Positions 2,632 through 10,555 of a DNA stretch of 64,000 nucleotides are shown piece after piece (position 1 is the first letter of the stretch; each line of letters begins with the position of its first letter). Below the pieces are notes generated by a model. That model was not told the origin of the DNA. It saw only the letters and a list, made by a program, of their open reading frames with translations, and made no database searches. Source of the stretch: Ruegeria sp. THAF57 (GTDB lineage Bacteria; Pseudomonadota; Alphaproteobacteria; Rhodobacterales; Rhodobacteraceae); the NCBI RefSeq assembly GCF_903914075.1, contig NZ_CAIWNQ010000002.1:496001-560000 (forward strand), in the 5' to 3' direction. Both the position numbers and the translations under genes were made by a program.

Positions 2632-3528
2632 TCAGCTTGCGGGTTCGCCCAGCGCGTTCATCAGTGTGCCCAGATTGTGCTGGAACATAGCAAGGTAGCT
2701 TGTCGCGGGGCCTCCCCGCTCGGACAGCGCATCGGAAAACAGGCGGCCACCGATGACAATGCCGGTCTCCTCCGAGATTTGCTGAACCAGAGCGGGGCTA
2801 GTGATGTTTTCCACGAACAGAGCGGCAGCACCTTCGGCCTTCAGTTGGTCGATCAGGATGGCCAGATCTTTTGCGGATGGTTCCGCCTCGGTGTCGATCC
2901 CGACGGGGGCCAGGAAGGTCAGGCCGTAAGCATCAGCCAGATATCCGAACGCATCATGCGCGGTCACGACGGTGCGGCGGTCCGCAGGCAAATCTGCCAA
3001 CTTGGACTTGGTCTCTGCGTCCAGCGCCTCAAGCTCTGCGATATAGGCTTCGGCATTGGCCGCGATCTGATCCGCGTGCTCAGGCATCGCAGCTTTCAAT
3101 ACATCCGCGACATTGGTCACATAGACCACCCCGTTCGACAATGAGTTCCACGCATGCGGGTCGATTTCGCCGTCGACCTTGACCGGAGTAATCCCATCGG
3201 TGGCGACGTGTACCGTCGCATCGGTACCCGATTCTGAAATCAGCGTGTCGGACCATGTTTCAAAGCCCAGACCGTTGACAAAGATGATGTCAGCTTTGGC
3301 AACGGCTTTGGCGTCGGCGACTGAAGGCTGATAGACATGCGCGTCTGCGTCGGGGCCCACGATCGTCGTCACGTTGGCCAGATCGCCAACGACCTCTTCA
3401 ACCATGTCCCCAAGGATTGAGAAACTGGCTACGATCTGGACGTCGTCCTCACCTGCGATGGCCGGGAATGCGACCAACGCAAACGAAGCCGAGGCGATGC
3501 TGGCATAGAGCGATTTTATTAGAGTCAT
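2632..3528 (-). CDS. Metal ABC transporter substrate-binding protein (ZnuA/TroA-like)
   Basis: This is a periplasmic cluster A-I metal-binding protein of 298 residues with a signal peptide (about 1-25, ending FPAIAG). The likely metal ligands are His64 (DAHVYQP), His125 (DPHAW), His191 (AHDAFGY) and Asp266, a His3-Asp set like ZnuA/TroA. The Glu typical of Mn-specific proteins at the third position is absent, and so is the His-rich loop of many ZnuA proteins. The ATG at 3528 overlaps the permease stop (ATGA); a longer frame to 3720 runs into the permease gene and lacks a signal peptide at its start. It is the last gene of an operon headed by a cobalamin riboswitch, so the physiological metal may be cobalt rather than zinc (inference). 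Confidence 0.88.
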   Translation of the reverse strand: MTLIKSLYASIASASFALVAFPAIAGEDDVQIVASFSILGDMVEEVVGDLANVTTIVGPDADAHVYQPSVADAKAVAKADIIFVNGLGFETWSDTLISESGTDATVHVATDGITPVKVDGEIDPHAWNSLSNGVVYVTNVADVLKAAMPEHADQIAANAEAYIAELEALDAETKSKLADLPADRRTVVTAHDAFGYLADAYGLTFLAPVGIDTEAEPSAKDLAILIDQLKAEGAAALFVENITSPALVQQISEETGIVIGGRLFSDALSERGGPATSYLAMFQHNLGTLMNALGEPAS

Positions 3529-4427
3529 TGTGCTTTCTCTTCTTGTTGAATCTGAGTAACGGATAAGTCGCTGGAAACGACCGGTTTGCGGGCTCTTTTG
3601 CCGAAACCAAGAGGGCCGAAGATGGCCGAGATCAGGAAAATTCCCCCGGCAACCAGAACAATGGCCGGTCCGGACGGGGTCTCTGGGAACAGGTAAGACA
3701 GGGTCAGCCCGATCCAGCAACTGGACAGCGCAAAAATGAAACCCAAAACCAACTGAGCTGTAATCGTACTGGCCCAGTATCGTGCTGCTGTTGCGGGCAG
3801 GATCATCAAACCCACGGCCATCAGCGTGCCCAAAGTCTTGAACGCAGCCAGCAGGTTCAGCACCAGCAGCAGCATGAAACCTTGATCGACCAGCCAGGGC
3901 CGCCGCGTTTGTGTTTCAAAGAAAACCGGGTCGCAAGTGCTGACAATCAATGGCCGCAAAAGGAACGCAAAGGCCACCAGCGTTACGGTCGCCACACCGC
4001 CCACCAGCAGCATCGACGCGTCGTCGATCCCAAGGATTGAGCCAAACAGGAAGCTTTTCAACGGAACAGCCGACCCCGCCGCAGACAGAATGAATATCCC
4101 AACCGCCAGCGCTATCAGATAGAGCGACGCAAGGCTGGCGTCGCTACGCAGGATCGTTCTGCGCGCCAACAACGCCGTCAGCATAGCGACACCGACACCC
4201 GCAATCAGACCGCCGACCAGCAATGACATGACTGACAGGCCAGCGGTCACGAAACCAATGACAATGCCCGGTGTGATCGCATGCGCCATCGCCTCGCCCG
4301 CCAGCGACAAACGCCGCAGAACAAGAAACGCCCCGACCGGAGCAACCGAAGCCGACAAGACGGTCGTGACCACGAAAGCACGGCGCATGAAGGCGAAGCT
4401 CCACATTTCGCTGAGCAGTTCAAACAT
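3525..4427 (-). CDS. Metal ABC transporter permease (ZnuB/MntB family)
   Basis: This 300-residue inner-membrane permease of the ABC-3 family has about eight to nine hydrophobic segments and the family-typical early stretch RRLSLAGEAMAHAITPG (about residues 38-54). It forms the membrane channel with the ATPase encoded upstream and receives metal from the downstream binding protein. It overlaps the ATPase gene by 8 bases and the binding-protein gene by an ATGA, so the three are translationally coupled. The C-terminal tail after the last helix is short and charged. Substrate identity cannot be read from this protein alone. Confidence 0.9.
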   Translation of the reverse strand: MFELLSEMWSFAFMRRAFVVTTVLSASVAPVGAFLVLRRLSLAGEAMAHAITPGIVIGFVTAGLSVMSLLVGGLIAGVGVAMLTALLARRTILRSDASLASLYLIALAVGIFILSAAGSAVPLKSFLFGSILGIDDASMLLVGGVATVTLVAFAFLLRPLIVSTCDPVFFETQTRRPWLVDQGFMLLLVLNLLAAFKTLGTLMAVGLMILPATAARYWASTITAQLVLGFIFALSSCWIGLTLSYLFPETPSGPAIVLVAGGIFLISAIFGPLGFGKRARKPVVSSDLSVTQIQQEEKAQ

Positions 4428-5178
4428 GCGCGGGCTCCTGCGGTTTTGGGCTGGACCGGAACATCCAGGACGCCTGACTTTCGGACAGATACCCCTGGGC
4501 CACCAAACGGTCCGGCGTCAGTACATCATCCACCGGGCCGTGCGTGGCCTCTTGCCCACCCAGCAACAGGGCGTGGCTGCAATGATCCAACACCGAAGAC
4601 AGGTCATGCACCACCAACACAACAGAGCGCCCCTCGTCGCGCCAGCGGTGAATAATCGACAGCAAATGCGCCTCGGTGCTTTGGTCAACGGCCGCAAACG
4701 GCTCGTCCAGCAGGATCAACGGTGCATCCTGCATAATGACCCGCGCGAACAGCGCGCGCTGCAATTGTCCACCTGACAGCATGTGAATCGGGCGGTCAGC
4801 GATATCAAGAACGCCAGCTTCGTCCAGCGCAGCGGTCATTCGGTCACGTGCCGCGTTGTCCAGCCCCGATCGAAATCCAAACCCGCGCCAGGCACCCATT
4901 GCCGCCAAGTCCCGCACGCGAATTGGGAAACGCCGGTCAAATTCTGTCATTTGTGCCAAATAACCGATTTCGCGCGGGCGGCCCTTGGGCCAGTTCAGGC
5001 TGCCCGACAGCGGGTCCATCAAGCCCAACAACATTTTCACAAACGTGCTTTTACCCGACCCGTTGGCACCTAACACAGCCAAGGTTGTTCCCGCTTCGAT
5101 ATCCATCGTCAGTCGGCGAAACAACGTCAGTTCGCGGTACCCAAGCGTCACATCGCGGATTTGCAGAACAGCCGTCAT
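4420..5178 (-). CDS. Metal ABC transporter ATP-binding protein (ZnuC/MntA-type)
   Basis: This 252-residue ABC ATPase has Walker A GANGSGKST (about 36-44), signature LSGGQLQRALFAR, Walker B LILLDEPFAAVD and the switch His in VVHDLSS. It energises the metal permease encoded immediately downstream. The start at 5178 is the ATG of a TGATG junction with the 43-residue membrane micro-ORF; a longer frame to 5205 would overlap that ORF. The gene overlaps the permease gene by 8 bases. Family similarity points to Zn/Mn/Fe transporters, whereas the upstream B12 riboswitch points to cobalt or another B12-linked metal. Confidence 0.9.
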   Translation of the reverse strand: MTAVLQIRDVTLGYRELTLFRRLTMDIEAGTTLAVLGANGSGKSTFVKMLLGLMDPLSGSLNWPKGRPREIGYLAQMTEFDRRFPIRVRDLAAMGAWRGFGFRSGLDNAARDRMTAALDEAGVLDIADRPIHMLSGGQLQRALFARVIMQDAPLILLDEPFAAVDQSTEAHLLSIIHRWRDEGRSVVLVVHDLSSVLDHCSHALLLGGQEATHGPVDDVLTPDRLVAQGYLSESQASWMFRSSPKPQEPAHV

Positions 5179-5309
5179 CAGATCACCATGTAGATCGCAA
5201 GCCACAACAGCACGGACAGCACCAAGGCACCCGCGACCAGAACCGGCACGCTGAACTCGGTCAGGCAGCGCCCGCGTTGGCCCACCGCATAATTCGAACG
5301 GCGCGTCAT
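5178..5309 (-). CDS. 43-residue single-helix membrane micro-protein
   Basis: This small ORF is MTRRSNYAVGQRGRC followed by one strongly hydrophobic segment (about residues 20-43, VPVLVAGALVLSVLLW core) and a stop. Its TGA shares one base with the ATG of the ATPase gene (TGATG), and its own ATG overlaps the stop of an upstream 35-residue frame (ATGA), so it looks translationally coupled. A positive N-terminus followed by one helix predicts an inner-membrane protein with the N-terminus inside. It occupies the position that small auxiliary subunits such as CbiN or CbtB take in B12-regulated cobalt importers, but I see no His-rich tail and do not recognise the family. It may be a transporter accessory subunit. 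Confidence 0.6.
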   Translation of the reverse strand: MTRRSNYAVGQRGRCLTEFSVPVLVAGALVLSVLLWLAIYMVI

Positions 5310-5413
5310 GAGGTTGCCTCGCAGGGCGTAAGGCAAGCGCAATCAGGCAGCGTTAAGGCAGCGATTTCCCTGCACATTCTACAGAGCCTGAACTGACAGT
5401 AATGCAATGACAT
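5306..5413 (-). CDS. Possible 35-residue Cys-rich micro-ORF
   Basis: This frame starts at ATG 5413, with AAGGAGG eight bases upstream, the best ribosome-binding site in the region, and ends in a TGA overlapping the next ATG (ATGA). The predicted product begins MSLHYCQFRLCRMC and carries six Cys (6, 11, 14, 25, 27, 31) in 35 residues. It could be a metal-binding peptide, a leader peptide whose translation controls the operon, or only a ribosome-landing frame that feeds the membrane micro-ORF. A start six bases earlier (5419) is also possible. No family is recognised, so the call rests on the ribosome-binding site and coupling only. Confidence 0.35.
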   Translation of the reverse strand: MSLHYCQFRLCRMCREIAALTLPDCACLTPCEATS

Positions 5414-5529
5414 GCGCATCGCCTCCTTCATTCAGACGGGGCACAGGCGAGTACAAGACAACGGGCGGCAAACCGCTTGGAACATTGTCATCTCCCTCTG
5501 GGACACCCCGCCCAGGTTACTAAATATTC

Positions 5530-5735
5530 GGATGGCAGGTCTCCTGACTTGCGGGTCTACGCTATCCCGATCCTTCCCAGGCAAATGCCCAGTGGACGAT
5601 CTCGGGTCGCTCACCGCCTACAGTTGCGGGGGCAGTCACGGACTTGACCCATTTGACCGGGTCGCACCGTATTCCCTTTTATCCCTTCCCGCAGACAGCG
5701 GTCGGGAACCATCAGGGCGACAAAATAGGAACCGC
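5530..5735 (-). promoter_or_regulatory. Cobalamin (B12) riboswitch
   Basis: On the minus strand the canonical elements occur in order: AAAAGGGAATACGGTG near 5660-5676, then a segment with TGCCCCCGCAACTGTA near 5617-5633, GCGA, CCACTGG, CTGGGAAGG, and finally the B12 box AGTCAGGAGACCTGCC at 5534-5549. The 5' boundary is approximate. About 120 bases separate the B12 box from the first micro-ORF, and two small hairpins (CTGGG/CCCAG and GCGG/CCGC) lie in between. It should repress the downstream small ORFs and the metal ABC importer when adenosylcobalamin is plentiful, linking this transporter to cobalt or B12 supply. Confidence 0.9.
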
Positions 5736-6422: not shown

Positions 6423-6438
6423 ATATTTCATGAAATAT
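6423..6438. promoter_or_regulatory. Candidate ArsR operator (perfect 16-bp palindrome)
   Basis: ATATTTCATGAAATAT is a perfect palindrome. Its last two bases are the first two bases of the arsR-arsC start codon at 6437. A CATAAT that could be the -10 element lies just upstream, so ArsR bound here would block the promoter and the translation start together. Confidence 0.6.
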
Positions 6439-7270
6439 GATAGAACAGATAACCGACCAGCTTGCCATTCTTGGCCACCCGCAGCGCATCTCCGTGTTCC
6501 GCATGTTGATGCGACGATTTCCCGACACCGTCCCGGCAGGTGAGTTGGCGACGGAACTGGGGATCAAGGCCAGCACCTTGTCGAACTACCTGAACGCGCT
6601 TCAGCGGTCGGGTCTGGTGACGCAGGAACGGGTGGGAACCTCTCTGCTCTATTCAATTGAAATGAAGAATGTACAGCACATGCTGGAATTCCTGCTGAAC
6701 GACTGCTGCCGTGGACGACCTGATATCTGTATGCCTTCAACACAAGGAACCAGGAAAATGACGGATCGGAAATTCAACGTACTTTTTCTGTGTGTGGGAA
6801 ATTCCGCCCGCTCGATCTTTGCTGAATCCCTTTTGCGGACACTAGGCGGGGATCGGTTTAGCGTCTATTCCGCGGGCACGCAGCCTACGTCGAAACTCAA
6901 CCCCTTTGCCGTTCAGGTACTAAACGACAAGGGGCACGATACATCGGGCCTGCGCTCGAAACATATGTCCGAGTTTGCCACAGACGACGCGCCCGAGATG
7001 GATTTCGTCTTTACGGTCTGCAATCAGGCCGCCAACGAAGAATGCCCGGCCTGGGAAGGTCAGCCCATTAGTGGCCACTGGGGTATGGTCGACCCGGTCA
7101 AAACAACCGGCACAGAGGCCGAGCAAAGCCTCGCCTTCCAAAACGCATACGGTGCGCTGAAACGGCGGATCGAAGCGTTCACCTCTTTGCCGGTCGAAAG
7201 CCTGGATCGGATCGCATTGCAAACTGCCGTCGACGATATCGGCAGAACCCACGTCGAGGACACGAAATGA
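6437..7270 (+). CDS. ArsR repressor fused to arsenate reductase (LMW-PTP type)
   Basis: This is a 277-residue two-domain protein. Residues 1-85 are an ArsR/SmtB winged helix, followed by CC at 90-91 and Cys98, a CC-N6-C cluster like the C-terminal As(III) site known in some ArsR proteins. Residues about 113-260 are a low-molecular-weight phosphatase-like arsenate reductase with the P-loop CVGNSAR (Cys119 to Arg125). The product should sense arsenite and repress the operon, and also take part in arsenate reduction. The start overlaps a palindrome and lacks a Shine-Dalgarno, so translation may be nearly leaderless. An internal AAGGA with ATG at 6758 could also yield a free ArsC. It overlaps the next gene by ATGA. 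Confidence 0.88.
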
Positions 7271-8265
7271 CCACTTACGCGGTAAACGGCCTCGGCCGGA
7301 TGGGAAAACTGGCCTTGAAGCCCCTGCTGGAAAAGGGTGTCAAGATCGCCTGGATCAACGACGGGGTCGGTGACCCCGAGATGCACGCGCATCTACTGGA
7401 GTTCGACACGGTGCATGGCCGCTGGAATGCCGATTTTGCCCACGACGCCGACAGCGTTACGATCAATGGCACCCGCCTGCCGTTCATTGGCACCAAAGAC
7501 CTGTCCGACCTGCCGCTGGACGGTGTGGATGTGGTGATCGACTGCACCGGCGTCTTCAAGACCGAGGCCAAGCTTGACCCTTATTTTGCGGCGGGGGTGA
7601 AGAAGGTTGTTGTTTCGGCCCCAGTCAAGGACGGGCCTACGGCCAATATCGTGATGGGCGTGAACGAGGGTACCTATGACCCAGCCACGCATCACATCGT
7701 AACGGCGGCCTCCTGCACCACGAACTGTCTGGCCCCTGTGGTCAAGGTTATCCATGAAAATCTGGGCATCCGCCATGGCTCGATGACTACGATCCACGAT
7801 GTGACCAACACCCAAACCATCGTGGACCGCCCCGCCAAAGACCTGCGGCGTGCGCGGTCGGCGCTGAATTCGCTGATCCCGACCACCACCGGGTCCGCCA
7901 CGGCGATCACGCTGATCTATCCCGAACTAAAGGGCCGGTTGAACGGCCATGCGGTTCGGGTGCCGCTTCTGAACGCCTCGCTGACCGATTGCGTATTCGA
8001 GGTTGAACGCGAAACCACCGCTGAAGAGGTCAACGCCTTCTTTAAATCCGCCGCCGAGGGCGAACTAAGGGGCATTCTGGGCTATGAGACCCGGCCGCTG
8101 GTCTCAACCGATTACACCAATGACAAGCGGTCTTCGATCGTCGATGCGCCTTCGACCATGGTTGTGAACGGAACGCAGGTGAAAATCTATGCGTGGTATG
8201 ACAACGAGATGGGCTATGCACATCGTTTGGTTGACGTGGCGCTGATGGTCGGGGCCGCGTTGTGA
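7267..8265 (+). CDS. ArsJ-associated glyceraldehyde-3-phosphate dehydrogenase
   Basis: This 332-residue GAPDH has catalytic Cys150 in [12 protein letters not shown] and His177 in [10 protein letters not shown]. In ars operons this enzyme is known to use arsenate in place of phosphate, making unstable 1-arseno-3-phosphoglycerate, which ArsJ then exports. The neighbouring arsJ supports that role over glycolysis. The start ATG overlaps the arsR-arsC stop (ATGA) and the stop overlaps the GTG start of arsJ. The NAD-binding Gly motif reads NGLGRMG (residues 7-13), close to but not identical with the glycolytic NGFGRIG. Confidence 0.9.
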
Positions 8266-9527
8266 CGCAGCGGCCCGAGGGACTGTCGGCCTATATTGCG
8301 GTCACGGCGGCCTATTGGGCCTTTATGCTGACCGACGGGGCCCTGCGGATGCTGGTGCTGTTGCACTTTCATACGATGGGGTTCTCGCCGGTGCAGTTGG
8401 CGTATTTGTTCGTTCTTTACGAAATTGCCGGGATGGTCACGAACCTGGCGGCCGGTTGGATCGCGGCGCGGTTCGGCCTGACCTCAACGCTGTATGCAGG
8501 GCTTGCACTACAGGTCGGGGCGCTGCTGGTACTGACACAACTAGACCCTAACTGGGCAATTCCGGTCAAAGTCGTCTTTGTGATGATCGTTCAGGGCGCC
8601 AGCGGGGTAGCCAAGGATCTGGCCAAGATGTCATCCAAATCGGCCGTGAAACTGCTGGCCCCAACAACAGGCGGAGGGCTGTTCCGCTGGGTCGCCATTC
8701 TGACCGGATCGAAAAACGCGGTCAAAGGTTTGGGCTTTCTGCTGGGGGCCGGTCTGCTGGCAACTGTTGGCTTCATGTGGGCAACACTGGCGATGGCCAT
8801 TGTGCTTGCACTCATTCTGGTGGCGATCTTTGTGTTGATGCCACCCGGCCTGCCGCAAGGACGCAAGGGCGCCAAGTTTTCCGAGGTCTTTTCCAAATCC
8901 GCAAATGTAAACTGGCTGTCTGCAGCACGCGTCTTTCTGTTTGGAGCGCGGGATGTGTGGTTCGTGGTCGGTATCCCGATCTATTTCTACGCGGTCCTGT
9001 CCGACGGGACCGAAGAAGGAAATCGCGCGGCCTTTTTCATGATCGGCACGTTCATGGCCGTCTGGGTTATCCTGTACGGAGCGGTTCAGGCCAGCGCACC
9101 CAAAATCCTGCACGCATCCGAGCGGACCGAGGGCGACCTGATCCGGGCCGCCCGCAATTGGGCTTTGGCCCTGTTCTGTGTCCCAGCTGCATTAACGGTC
9201 GCTGTTCTGATGTCGTCGGGGCCTGAGGCATGGTTGACCGTGACACTGGTTCTTGGATTGCTCGTGTTCGGGGCGATTTTCGCAATCAATTCCTCATTAC
9301 ATTCCTACCTGATCCTTGCCTTTACCAAGTCCGAGCGGGTCACGATGGATGTCGGTTTTTATTACATGGCTAATGCGACGGGCCGTCTGCTGGGCACCGT
9401 CCTATCCGGCCTGACCTATCAGATCGGCGGCCTTCCACTGGTGCTGGGAACTGCTGCTATTATGGTAGCCTTGGCGGCACTGACCGCAAGCAAGCTCACC
9501 GATCAGACGAACGAGGCGTACTCATGA
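8262..9527 (+). CDS. arsJ: Organoarsenical efflux MFS transporter
   Basis: This 421-residue major-facilitator protein has about 12 hydrophobic segments and begins [11 protein letters not shown]. In its known partnership it exports 1-arseno-3-phosphoglycerate made by the GAPDH encoded just upstream, giving net arsenate extrusion. The start is a GTG at 8262 that overlaps the GAPDH stop by four bases; no later start retains the first helix so well. The stop overlaps the next start. The identification rests on the characteristic N-terminus and the adjacent ars-type GAPDH. Confidence 0.9.
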
Positions 9528-10555
9528 GCATTTTCGAACGCTACCTAACCATATGGGTCGCCCTTGCAATGATCGCAGGCGTTTTGATCGGATTGGTGGC
9601 CCCCGGGCTGGTGACGTTGGTCGCATCGGCCGAGGTGGCCAGTGTCAATCTTGTGGTGGCCGTACTGATTTGGGCCATGGTTTATCCGATGATGGTCAGC
9701 GTCGATTTCGGCGCTGTCGCAGGGGTCGCCCGTCAGCCGAAGGGCCTTATTGTCACGCTAGTGGTCAACTGGCTGATCAAGCCGTTCACAATGGCTTTTC
9801 TGGCTGTCTTGTTCTTTGACCACGTATTCGCGCCGTGGATCAAACCGGAAGACGCCGCGCAATACACCGCTGGTCTGATCCTGCTAGGCGCGGCCCCCTG
9901 TACGGCGATGGTATTTGTCTGGTCTCAGCTTACCAAAGGGGACGCAACCTATACACTTGTGCAGGTCTCGGTGAACGACCTGATTATGGTCGTGGCCTTT
10001 GCCCCGATCGTCGCGTTCCTGTTGGGGGTCACCGATATCTCAGTCCCGTGGCAGACCTTGGTTCTGGCAACGGTTCTCTACGTGGTGCTGCCCCTGATTG
10101 CTGGTCTGCTCACACGGCGCAAACTGGGCTCGCAGGAGGCTATTGATGCGTTCTCGGCGCGGGTAAAGCCGTGGTCCGTGCTGGGCCTGATCACCACGGT
10201 GGTCATCCTGTTCGGTCTGCAGGGGCAAACCATTCTGGCCAAGCCGCTGGTGATTGTGCTGATCGCCGTGCCCATTCTGATCCAAAGCTACGGCATATTC
10301 GCACTGGCCTATGGTGCAGCCTATGCGTTGAAGGTGCCCCATCGCATCGCCGCACCCTGCGCCATGATCGGCACATCCAACTTCTTTGAACTGGCCGTCG
10401 CCGTCGCGATTAGCCTGTTCGGGCTGAACTCGGGCGCGGCGCTTGCAACCGTTGTGGGTGTTCTGGTTGAGGTACCGGTGATGCTGTCACTCGTGGCTTT
10501 TGCAAACCGCACGCGCAACCGGTTTTCTGATCCGGCGGCCCCGCACAAGGCATGA
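9524..10555 (+). CDS. Arsenite efflux transporter, Acr3 family
   Basis: This 343-residue membrane protein of the BART/Acr3 family has about ten helices. It has the conserved stretch [14 protein letters not shown] with Cys126, the residue equivalent to the As(III)-relevant Cys in characterised Acr3 proteins, and a second signature [17 protein letters not shown]. It exports arsenite produced by the ArsC domain and so completes an operon with two exits: Acr3 for As(III), and ArsJ with GAPDH for As(V). It overlaps arsJ by ATGA and ends six bases from the convergent glf gene. Confidence 0.92.

Follow-up and report, generated by a model that had tools for sequence, protein, structure and literature searches.

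A cobalamin riboswitch upstream of a ZnuA-type metal ABC importer in Ruegeria sp. THAF57: a candidate cobalt-supply operon

Introduction

Which metal is carried by an ATP-binding cassette (ABC) importer whose genes resemble those of zinc uptake and which is preceded by a riboswitch for vitamin B12? The question is raised by an operon of Ruegeria sp. THAF57 lying in the window analysed here, i.e., a whole stretch of 64,000 nucleotides (contig NZ_CAIWNQ010000002.1, positions 496,001 to 560,000). A sequence-only reading of this DNA had proposed that a ZnuABC-like operon encoding a His3-Asp binding protein is controlled by a cobalamin riboswitch and might be dedicated to cobalt. The class concerned, namely cluster A-I, comprises importers of zinc, manganese or iron according to the abstracts of PMC7731109 and PMC9820375, and TroA-type proteins are assigned to manganese and zinc in the corresponding part of a survey of 42 Roseobacter genomes (PMC4771312). 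As for predicted cobalt transporters, the passages devoted to them in PMC2667541 and PMC3766115 name no ZnuA-type system. In the literature searched, no description of a ZnuA-type importer under B12-riboswitch control was found, older B12 surveys being the place where an earlier mention is possible.

From the genomic evidence presented below, the operon is read as a probable cobalt-supply system (probability of about 0.68), the B12-riboswitch form of which would import cobalt for B12 synthesis. If so, a metal would be added to the cluster A-I class, a candidate cobalt importer would be named in B12-making bacteria, and among marine bacteria, Roseobacteraceae and Stappiaceae included, the zinc label of such genes would become questionable.

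A cobalamin riboswitch heads a cluster A-I operon

The predicted riboswitch was recovered by the covariance model RF00174 at 5728-5517(-), where it scores 126.7 bits (gathering score 31.5 bits), and is followed on the same strand by the ABC operon at 5309-2632(-) (Table 1). Together with an arrangement kept in most of the clade delineated below, this match gives strong support to the control of the operon by B12 that had been put forward. The operon combines a ZnuA-fold binding protein, an ABC-3 permease and an ATPase, i.e., the make-up of cluster A-I, and the Pfam models ABC_tran, ABC-3 and ZnuA score over their cut-offs for the three subunits, PF01297 being the sole Pfam match of the binding protein. 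What had been called ZnuABC-like is as such a cluster A-I metal importer on the expected strand, but its nearest named family is AztABC and not ZnuABC, the best NCBIfam matches being AztA, AztB and AztC, all under their equivalog cut-offs. Neighbouring genes overlap by a few bases, e.g., the start of the binding-protein gene (3528, chosen by eye) with the stop of the permease gene (ATGA), which suggests translational coupling.

Loop L5 is established as a kissing partner in B12 riboswitches, the facing loop being known as L13. In the window, L5 of the aptamer (CCCCCGC) is complementary to a block, GGCGGGGTG, of a hairpin just downstream, and this block is unchanged in 28/28 aligned leaders, a chosen subset of the 54 riboswitch-positive loci; a ribosome-binding-like sequence, GGGAG, stands directly 3' of the hairpin. 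Such a succession of aptamer, hairpin and GGGAG has the layout of a kissing-loop B12 riboswitch masking its ribosome-binding site, a kissing loop being described in the part of PMC7689651 that treats these riboswitches. Since single-strand minimum-free-energy folding of the leader without the aptamer did not recover the platform hairpin (z -0.10), the translational mechanism is one that we infer rather than observe.

Table 1. Features of the riboswitch-operon locus, in window coordinates, from the 5' end of the transcript
Feature	Position	Strand	Basis or description
Cobalamin riboswitch aptamer (RF00174)	5517..5728	(-)	126.7 bits, E 1.9e-31, full-length match (model 1-189)
Aptamer loop L5 (CCCCCGC), which may form a kissing contact with the hairpin loop downstream	5626..5632	(-)	Read from sequence
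Putative expression platform, a CTGGG/CCCAG hairpin whose loop CGGGGTGT complements L5	5492..5515	(-)	Leader alignment
Leader open reading frame, 37 aa, after GGAGG	5306..5419	(-)	Read from sequence
Membrane microprotein, 43 aa, single helix (CLTEFS...LLWLAIYMVI)	5178..5309	(-)	Same place in most clade loci tested
ABC ATPase, AztA-like, 252 aa	4420..5178	(-)	NF040873 188 bits (cut-off 220); PF00005
ABC-3 permease, AztB-like, 300 aa	3525..4427	(-)	NF040871 204 bits (cut-off 280); PF00950
Periplasmic metal-binding protein, AztC-like, 298 aa	2632..3528	(-)	NF040870 282 bits (cut-off 350); PF01297

The riboswitch is conserved in a clade apart from AztC

Relatives were collected with the window binding protein in a scan of one genome per species, covering 84,980 species and yielding 79 loci; the scan relied on peptide patterns taken from this protein and hence favoured near relatives. 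The binding proteins of the scan loci, of loci from own-family genomes and of plasmid records, 91 in all, were placed in a tree. With 100/100 support, it separates 66 proteins including that of the window, hereafter the clade, from 25 AztC types. Judged from a B12-box pattern, plus Rfam on subsets, the riboswitch precedes the operon in 54 of the 66 clade members, is absent in six (L033, L040, L042, L044, L060 and L093) and is undecidable in six whose contigs end (L036, L047 and L055-L058). Among the AztC-type loci, 21 were searched with Rfam and 18 hold the ATPase together with its upstream side; none of these 18 has a riboswitch before the operon, and in L097, L117 and L118 one lies elsewhere in the locus. 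Whole-genome searches with Infernal likewise gave, in at least 41 of 52 operon genomes, a same-strand match that precedes the binding protein by 1,965-2,149 bp. The riboswitch-operon link is thus a conserved arrangement, with at least four changes of riboswitch state on the tree.

The operon itself is patchy, since a binding protein of more than 70% identity occurs in only three of 150 own-family genomes, i.e., the own genome, G016 and G066. Within the clade, few of its flanking genes are conserved, and they were for this reason dropped as functional clues. In L028, L031 and L063, a second B12 box is found just downstream of the operon, near 7164 (+), followed in L028 by a large cluster of membrane genes resembling an Mnh/Mrp-type antiporter (by eye).

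Genomes with the operon have a B12-synthesis context suggestive of cobalt

Gene content was compared in 52 operon genomes, namely the own genome, two own-family genomes and 49 behind loci, of which 46 are riboswitch-positive, four negative and two undecided. The CobN family, whose Pfam model also covers Mg-chelatase, is present in 49 of the 52 (no match in G177, G185 and G187), including 44 of the 46 riboswitch-positive genomes. CbtA is found in 4 of the 52 vs 46 of the 147 operon-negative own-family genomes (the 150 minus the three operon carriers), a contrast with a Fisher p of 0.0006, or of 0.047 when 31 genus-level groups, which are not phylogenetically independent, stand in for the 49 locus-derived genomes. 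CbiM occurs in 6 of the 52. The expected absence of CbiMNQO and CbtAB from operon genomes, searched here as CbiM and CbtA, consequently holds for most of them but not for all. At G016:C124:18242-18513, G161:C1:116086-116378 and G178:C121:2392-2642, a B12 riboswitch immediately precedes a CbiM-like gene.

The own genome contains four B12 riboswitches (gene names without a hidden Markov model (HMM) result were here read by eye, and the HMM matches are below equivalog cut-offs), placed (i) before the ZnuA-type ABC operon of the window, (ii) ahead of a DUF1636-like gene plus a BtuCDF/CbtJKL-like ABC, with a zur-znuABC-like locus adjacent, (iii) before a cob cluster with CobN, and (iv) before an orphan Cys-containing protein of 159 aa (L090:6690-7169, C6), a 134-residue part of which was scanned and gave no NCBIfam match. 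A complete CbiMNQO was set aside, as a lone CbiM-like gene was all that was seen in the 18 kb examined. The zur-znuABC-like locus (L089) has ZnuA (218.6 of 268 bits) and Zur (124 of 167 bits) as its best matches, both under their cut-offs; its ZnuA-like protein has a His-rich loop, and a COG0523-like gene is adjacent (by eye). Another cluster A-I system has an ATPase whose best match, below cut-off, is the manganese protein MntA.

The metal site is of the AztC type with changes around it

The His3-Asp site expected of the binding protein is indeed there: the AztC ligands H62, H123, H189 and D264 are kept in 66, 65, 66 and 65 of the 66 clade rows, respectively (residues of the 296-residue query; +2 for the full protein). 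Around them, two substitutions mark the clade, i.e., Asn for Gln three residues past the second ligand (65/65 clade rows with a residue there vs 0/25 AztC types), and Asp for Ser, Asn or Ala in the Z-loop (D210; 66/66 vs 0/25). The latter position adjoins the residue equivalent to AztC Val224, the carbonyl of which lies 3.6 Å from zinc according to the structural part of PMC7463823. As for the His-rich D-loop through which AztC receives metal from AztD, the clade has instead a loop of 13 residues in 66/66 rows, with no His in 65. The AlphaFold model of the binding protein (pLDDT 85.1) has holo-AztC as its best match among solved structures. No residue was found that tracks the riboswitch, the discriminating columns splitting only the clade from the AztC types; since riboswitch-less members share the metal-site features, these are suggestive only.

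Riboswitch-less relatives stand in zinc-type loci

In the 46 riboswitch-positive genomes, there are at least two ZnuA-family matches in every case and at least three in 44, some counts being possibly inflated by split matches. Riboswitch-less G182, G184 and G185 (L040, L042 and L044) have one match each, that of the operon itself; G016 has four. At the locus, a COG0523 GTPase (named by eye, with a tblastn match) accompanies five of the six riboswitch-less clade members, with a WD40 gene beside it in four of the five, L060 having neither in a short flank; at riboswitch-positive loci, several of which have short downstream flanks, no COG0523 gene was seen. Near L044, Fur-family, ThrS and HisI paralogues are found (by eye), in a genome with neither CobN nor a B12 riboswitch match. 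In G016, the sole riboswitch match precedes a CbiM-like gene, and the Azt-like operon (L093), without riboswitch, is accompanied by COG0523 and WD40 genes. These observations are what would be expected if cobalt were the cargo of the riboswitch form and zinc that of the other.

Some zinc-uptake islands also have a separate B12 riboswitch at a distance of several kb at most, namely those at L089:2355-9107 (own genome, C5), L118:2838-10930, L097 and L117, this riboswitch preceding a DUF1636 gene in L089 (by eye) and L118 (record annotation). Such a recurrent vicinity suggests a link between zinc genes and those of B12 or cobalt. At L093:4561-10850, the Azt-like operon of G016 with its COG0523 and beta-propeller genes stands beside a cyanase-like gene and a nitrate/cyanate-type ABC (by eye).

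Which metal, and why under B12 control

Cobalt as the cargo, suggested earlier from the riboswitch, is favoured by the distribution of CobN, CbtA, CbiM and further ZnuA-family matches in the operon genomes, together with the rarity of the MetE N-terminal domain; the zinc-like ligands and the riboswitch-less kin in zinc-type loci leave it a qualified proposal. The direction of the switch, as well as cobalt being the main cargo, is something we infer. In the mechanism proposed, scarce adenosylcobalamin would leave the leader in a fold with an open ribosome-binding site, from which a microprotein encoded ahead of the ATPase (see below), the ATPase, the permease and the binding protein would be made as one coupled unit. 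The AztC-type protein could then take up periplasmic Co(II) with its His3Asp site and pass it to the ABC-3 permease, which would pump it in for CobN-dependent B12 synthesis. Once plentiful, B12 would bind the aptamer, L5 would pair with the hairpin loop, and with the ribosome-binding site masked, import would stop.

The nearest rival is the import of zinc, or of zinc and cobalt together: the operon may still be a zinc importer, placed under B12 control as low B12 raises the demand for zinc, e.g., by the zinc enzyme MetE. Such a role would agree with the AztC-type ligands of the window protein, with zinc-loaded AztC as its closest structure and with close riboswitch-less relatives in zinc-type loci. 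We nonetheless regard it as unlikely. The MetE N-terminal domain is over cut-off in none of the 46 riboswitch-positive genomes (G167 has a weak match below) and in 1 of the 52 operon genomes (G182, without operon riboswitch), domain-less MetE not having been sought, and zinc for MetE is on this count rejected as a general reason. The further ZnuA-family matches of every riboswitch-positive genome, the zur-znuABC-like locus of the own genome and the fact that no COG0523 gene was seen at riboswitch-positive loci, some with short flanks, also speak against zinc, as does the absence of the flexible His/Asp/Glu-rich loop called indicative of zinc specificity in the relevant part of PMC7463823, although this loop is absent in many AztC types too. 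A manganese importer feeding a class Ib ribonucleotide reductase, in replacement of the B12-dependent one at low B12, would fit two loci in which the operon is back to back with a second B12 riboswitch and nrdI-nrdE-nrdF (L007:1-3713 and L021:645-3818; NrdI by HMM). This is highly improbable, as NrdI is matched in only 7 of the 52 operon genomes and is absent from the own one, and supply of NrdIEF is rejected as a general reason; moreover, the third ligand is His and not the Glu usual in manganese binding proteins, and the own genome has its other, MntA-like cluster A-I system.

Nickel, or nickel and cobalt alike as in several NiCoT and ECF (energy-coupling factor) systems, deserves about as little credence. 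Many known Ni/Co transporters accept both metals, as stated in the part of PMC7689651 dealing with them, and a urease cluster is present in the own genome (by eye), but the operon comes with a B12 riboswitch, nearly all operon genomes contain the CobN family, and by eye the first 12 kb of the window showed no urease gene beside the operon. Least credible of all is the notion that the riboswitch is an inherited or hitch-hiking element without a working link to the operon. It would draw on the leader of about 200-410 bp that separates aptamer and ATPase across loci and contains poorly conserved short open reading frames; it is countered by a riboswitch kept in 54 of the 60 testable clade members despite flanking genes that are mostly not conserved, and by the invariance of the L5-complementary block in the aligned leaders.

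Several observations weigh against cobalt supply, and some concern the genomes. Two riboswitch-positive genomes have no CobN match, and G190 (L055, of undecidable riboswitch state) has CobN yet no RF00174 match at all; L060 has neither riboswitch nor, in its short flank, a zinc-type partner. NicO is present in 37 of the 52 operon genomes and HupE in 31, 10 of them above 160 bits, and either could also import cobalt, so that mutual exclusion with all other Ni/Co importers is not borne out. Three of the four CbtA genomes (G155, G165 and G179) have CbtA preceded by a separate riboswitch. On C9, the own genome carries an isolated CbiM-like gene, without riboswitch, and its second riboswitch-controlled ABC has a binding protein 27% identical to CbtJ of Sinorhizobium meliloti; because of this system, the window operon may not be the only cobalt route. 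In view of the other possible importers in operon genomes, i.e., CbtA or CbiM in some and homologues of NicO or HupE commonly, the wording "dedicated to cobalt" was too strong.

Other such points concern the protein. The ligand set equals that of zinc-binding AztC, and the residues marking the clade are mostly common to its riboswitch-less, zinc-looking members. The loss of the His-rich D-loop is a weak mark of the clade, since 13 of the 25 AztC types, mostly from Pseudomonas, also have fewer than three His there (12 have at least three). Riboswitch-less gammaproteobacterial members are 71% identical to the window protein and lie beside COG0523 and WD40 genes; as theirs is also the only ZnuA-family match of the genome, the scaffold of the clade can probably carry zinc. 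The exclusion between riboswitch and COG0523 gene itself rests on only three independent pairs and is not significant as such in a tree-based test.

Beyond the cobalt supply proposed for the operon stands a wider evolutionary reading, to which we would give even odds: a branch of zinc importers would have turned into a cobalt importer under a B12 riboswitch, with the microprotein of 43 aa as a fourth subunit, while a gammaproteobacterial sub-branch and G016 are without riboswitch and with zinc-type partners. A single scaffold would then offer a naturally occurring series of metal switches. With sub-branches paired in this way, riboswitch vs zinc-type partners, the separation of Co(II) from Zn(II) by one His3Asp site is directly testable.

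A microprotein between the leader and the ATPase

Overlooked in the sequence-only reading, a gene for a membrane microprotein ends on the start of the ATPase gene (TGATG). The same microprotein is present between aptamer and ATPase in most of the clade loci whose sequence extends sufficiently far upstream; L060 has no clear one, and L093 was outside the comparison. Over the last 29 codons, the ratio of nonsynonymous to synonymous polymorphism (pN/pS) is 0.35 in a selection of 26 sequences and 0.23 when 12 Ruegeria-group sequences are taken, vs 1.2-1.8 in the other two frames. The microprotein has no Pfam or NCBIfam match. A comparable small helix precedes the ATPase in the zinc-type loci L112, L114, L117 and L118; the microprotein is therefore not unique to the presumed cobalt branch and belongs to the wider subfamily. 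It is a new candidate subunit of the importer and may have a role in the permease complex. Just upstream, the stop of the leader open reading frame overlaps the microprotein start (ATGA); a similar short frame occurs in other long-leader loci, its amino acids not being conserved across loci.

Relation to known systems

The system closest to the operon is AztABC(D), the zinc ABC importer of Paracoccus denitrificans, likewise of cluster A-I, with the nearest named homologues of the three subunits, the same four ligands and the closest solved structures. Besides scoring under the three equivalog cut-offs, the window operon differs from it by the missing His-rich D-loop, the change of the Z-loop Ser to Asp, the lack of a COG0523 gene at riboswitch-positive loci, a B12 riboswitch instead of a Zur-type neighbourhood and the additional microprotein; moreover, no AztD gene was seen beside the operon in the window (by eye, a genome-wide search not having been made). 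The zur-znuABC-like locus of the own genome is also of cluster A-I and is set apart by its ZnuA and Zur best matches and its His-rich loop.

Among cobalt importers, CbiMNQO, often controlled by a B12 riboswitch, includes CbiN as a small membrane subunit, a likeness to the microprotein of the window. It is however of the ECF class, without periplasmic binding protein, and its CbiM is infrequent in operon genomes. CbtJKL of S. meliloti is closer in the function proposed and is an ABC-type system behind a B12 riboswitch, but CbtJ is BtuF-like, i.e., of another binding-protein class, according to the part of PMC7689651 describing it, whereas the window operon has a ZnuA fold and an ABC-3 permease; a B12 box and a CbtJ-like open reading frame were seen in a DNA stretch of S. 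meliloti. Finally, CbtAB, CbtC-CbtG and CbtX are cobalt transporters predicted from the same kind of evidence, namely riboswitch and genome context, and the part of PMC2667541 that presents them does not describe them as ZnuA-type ABC systems.

Neighbouring genes in the window

On its upstream side, the operon adjoins an arsenic cluster at 6437-10555(+), comprising an ArsR-ArsC fusion-like gene (under cut-offs), a GAPDH-like gene (by eye), and ArsJ and ACR3, both over their cut-offs.

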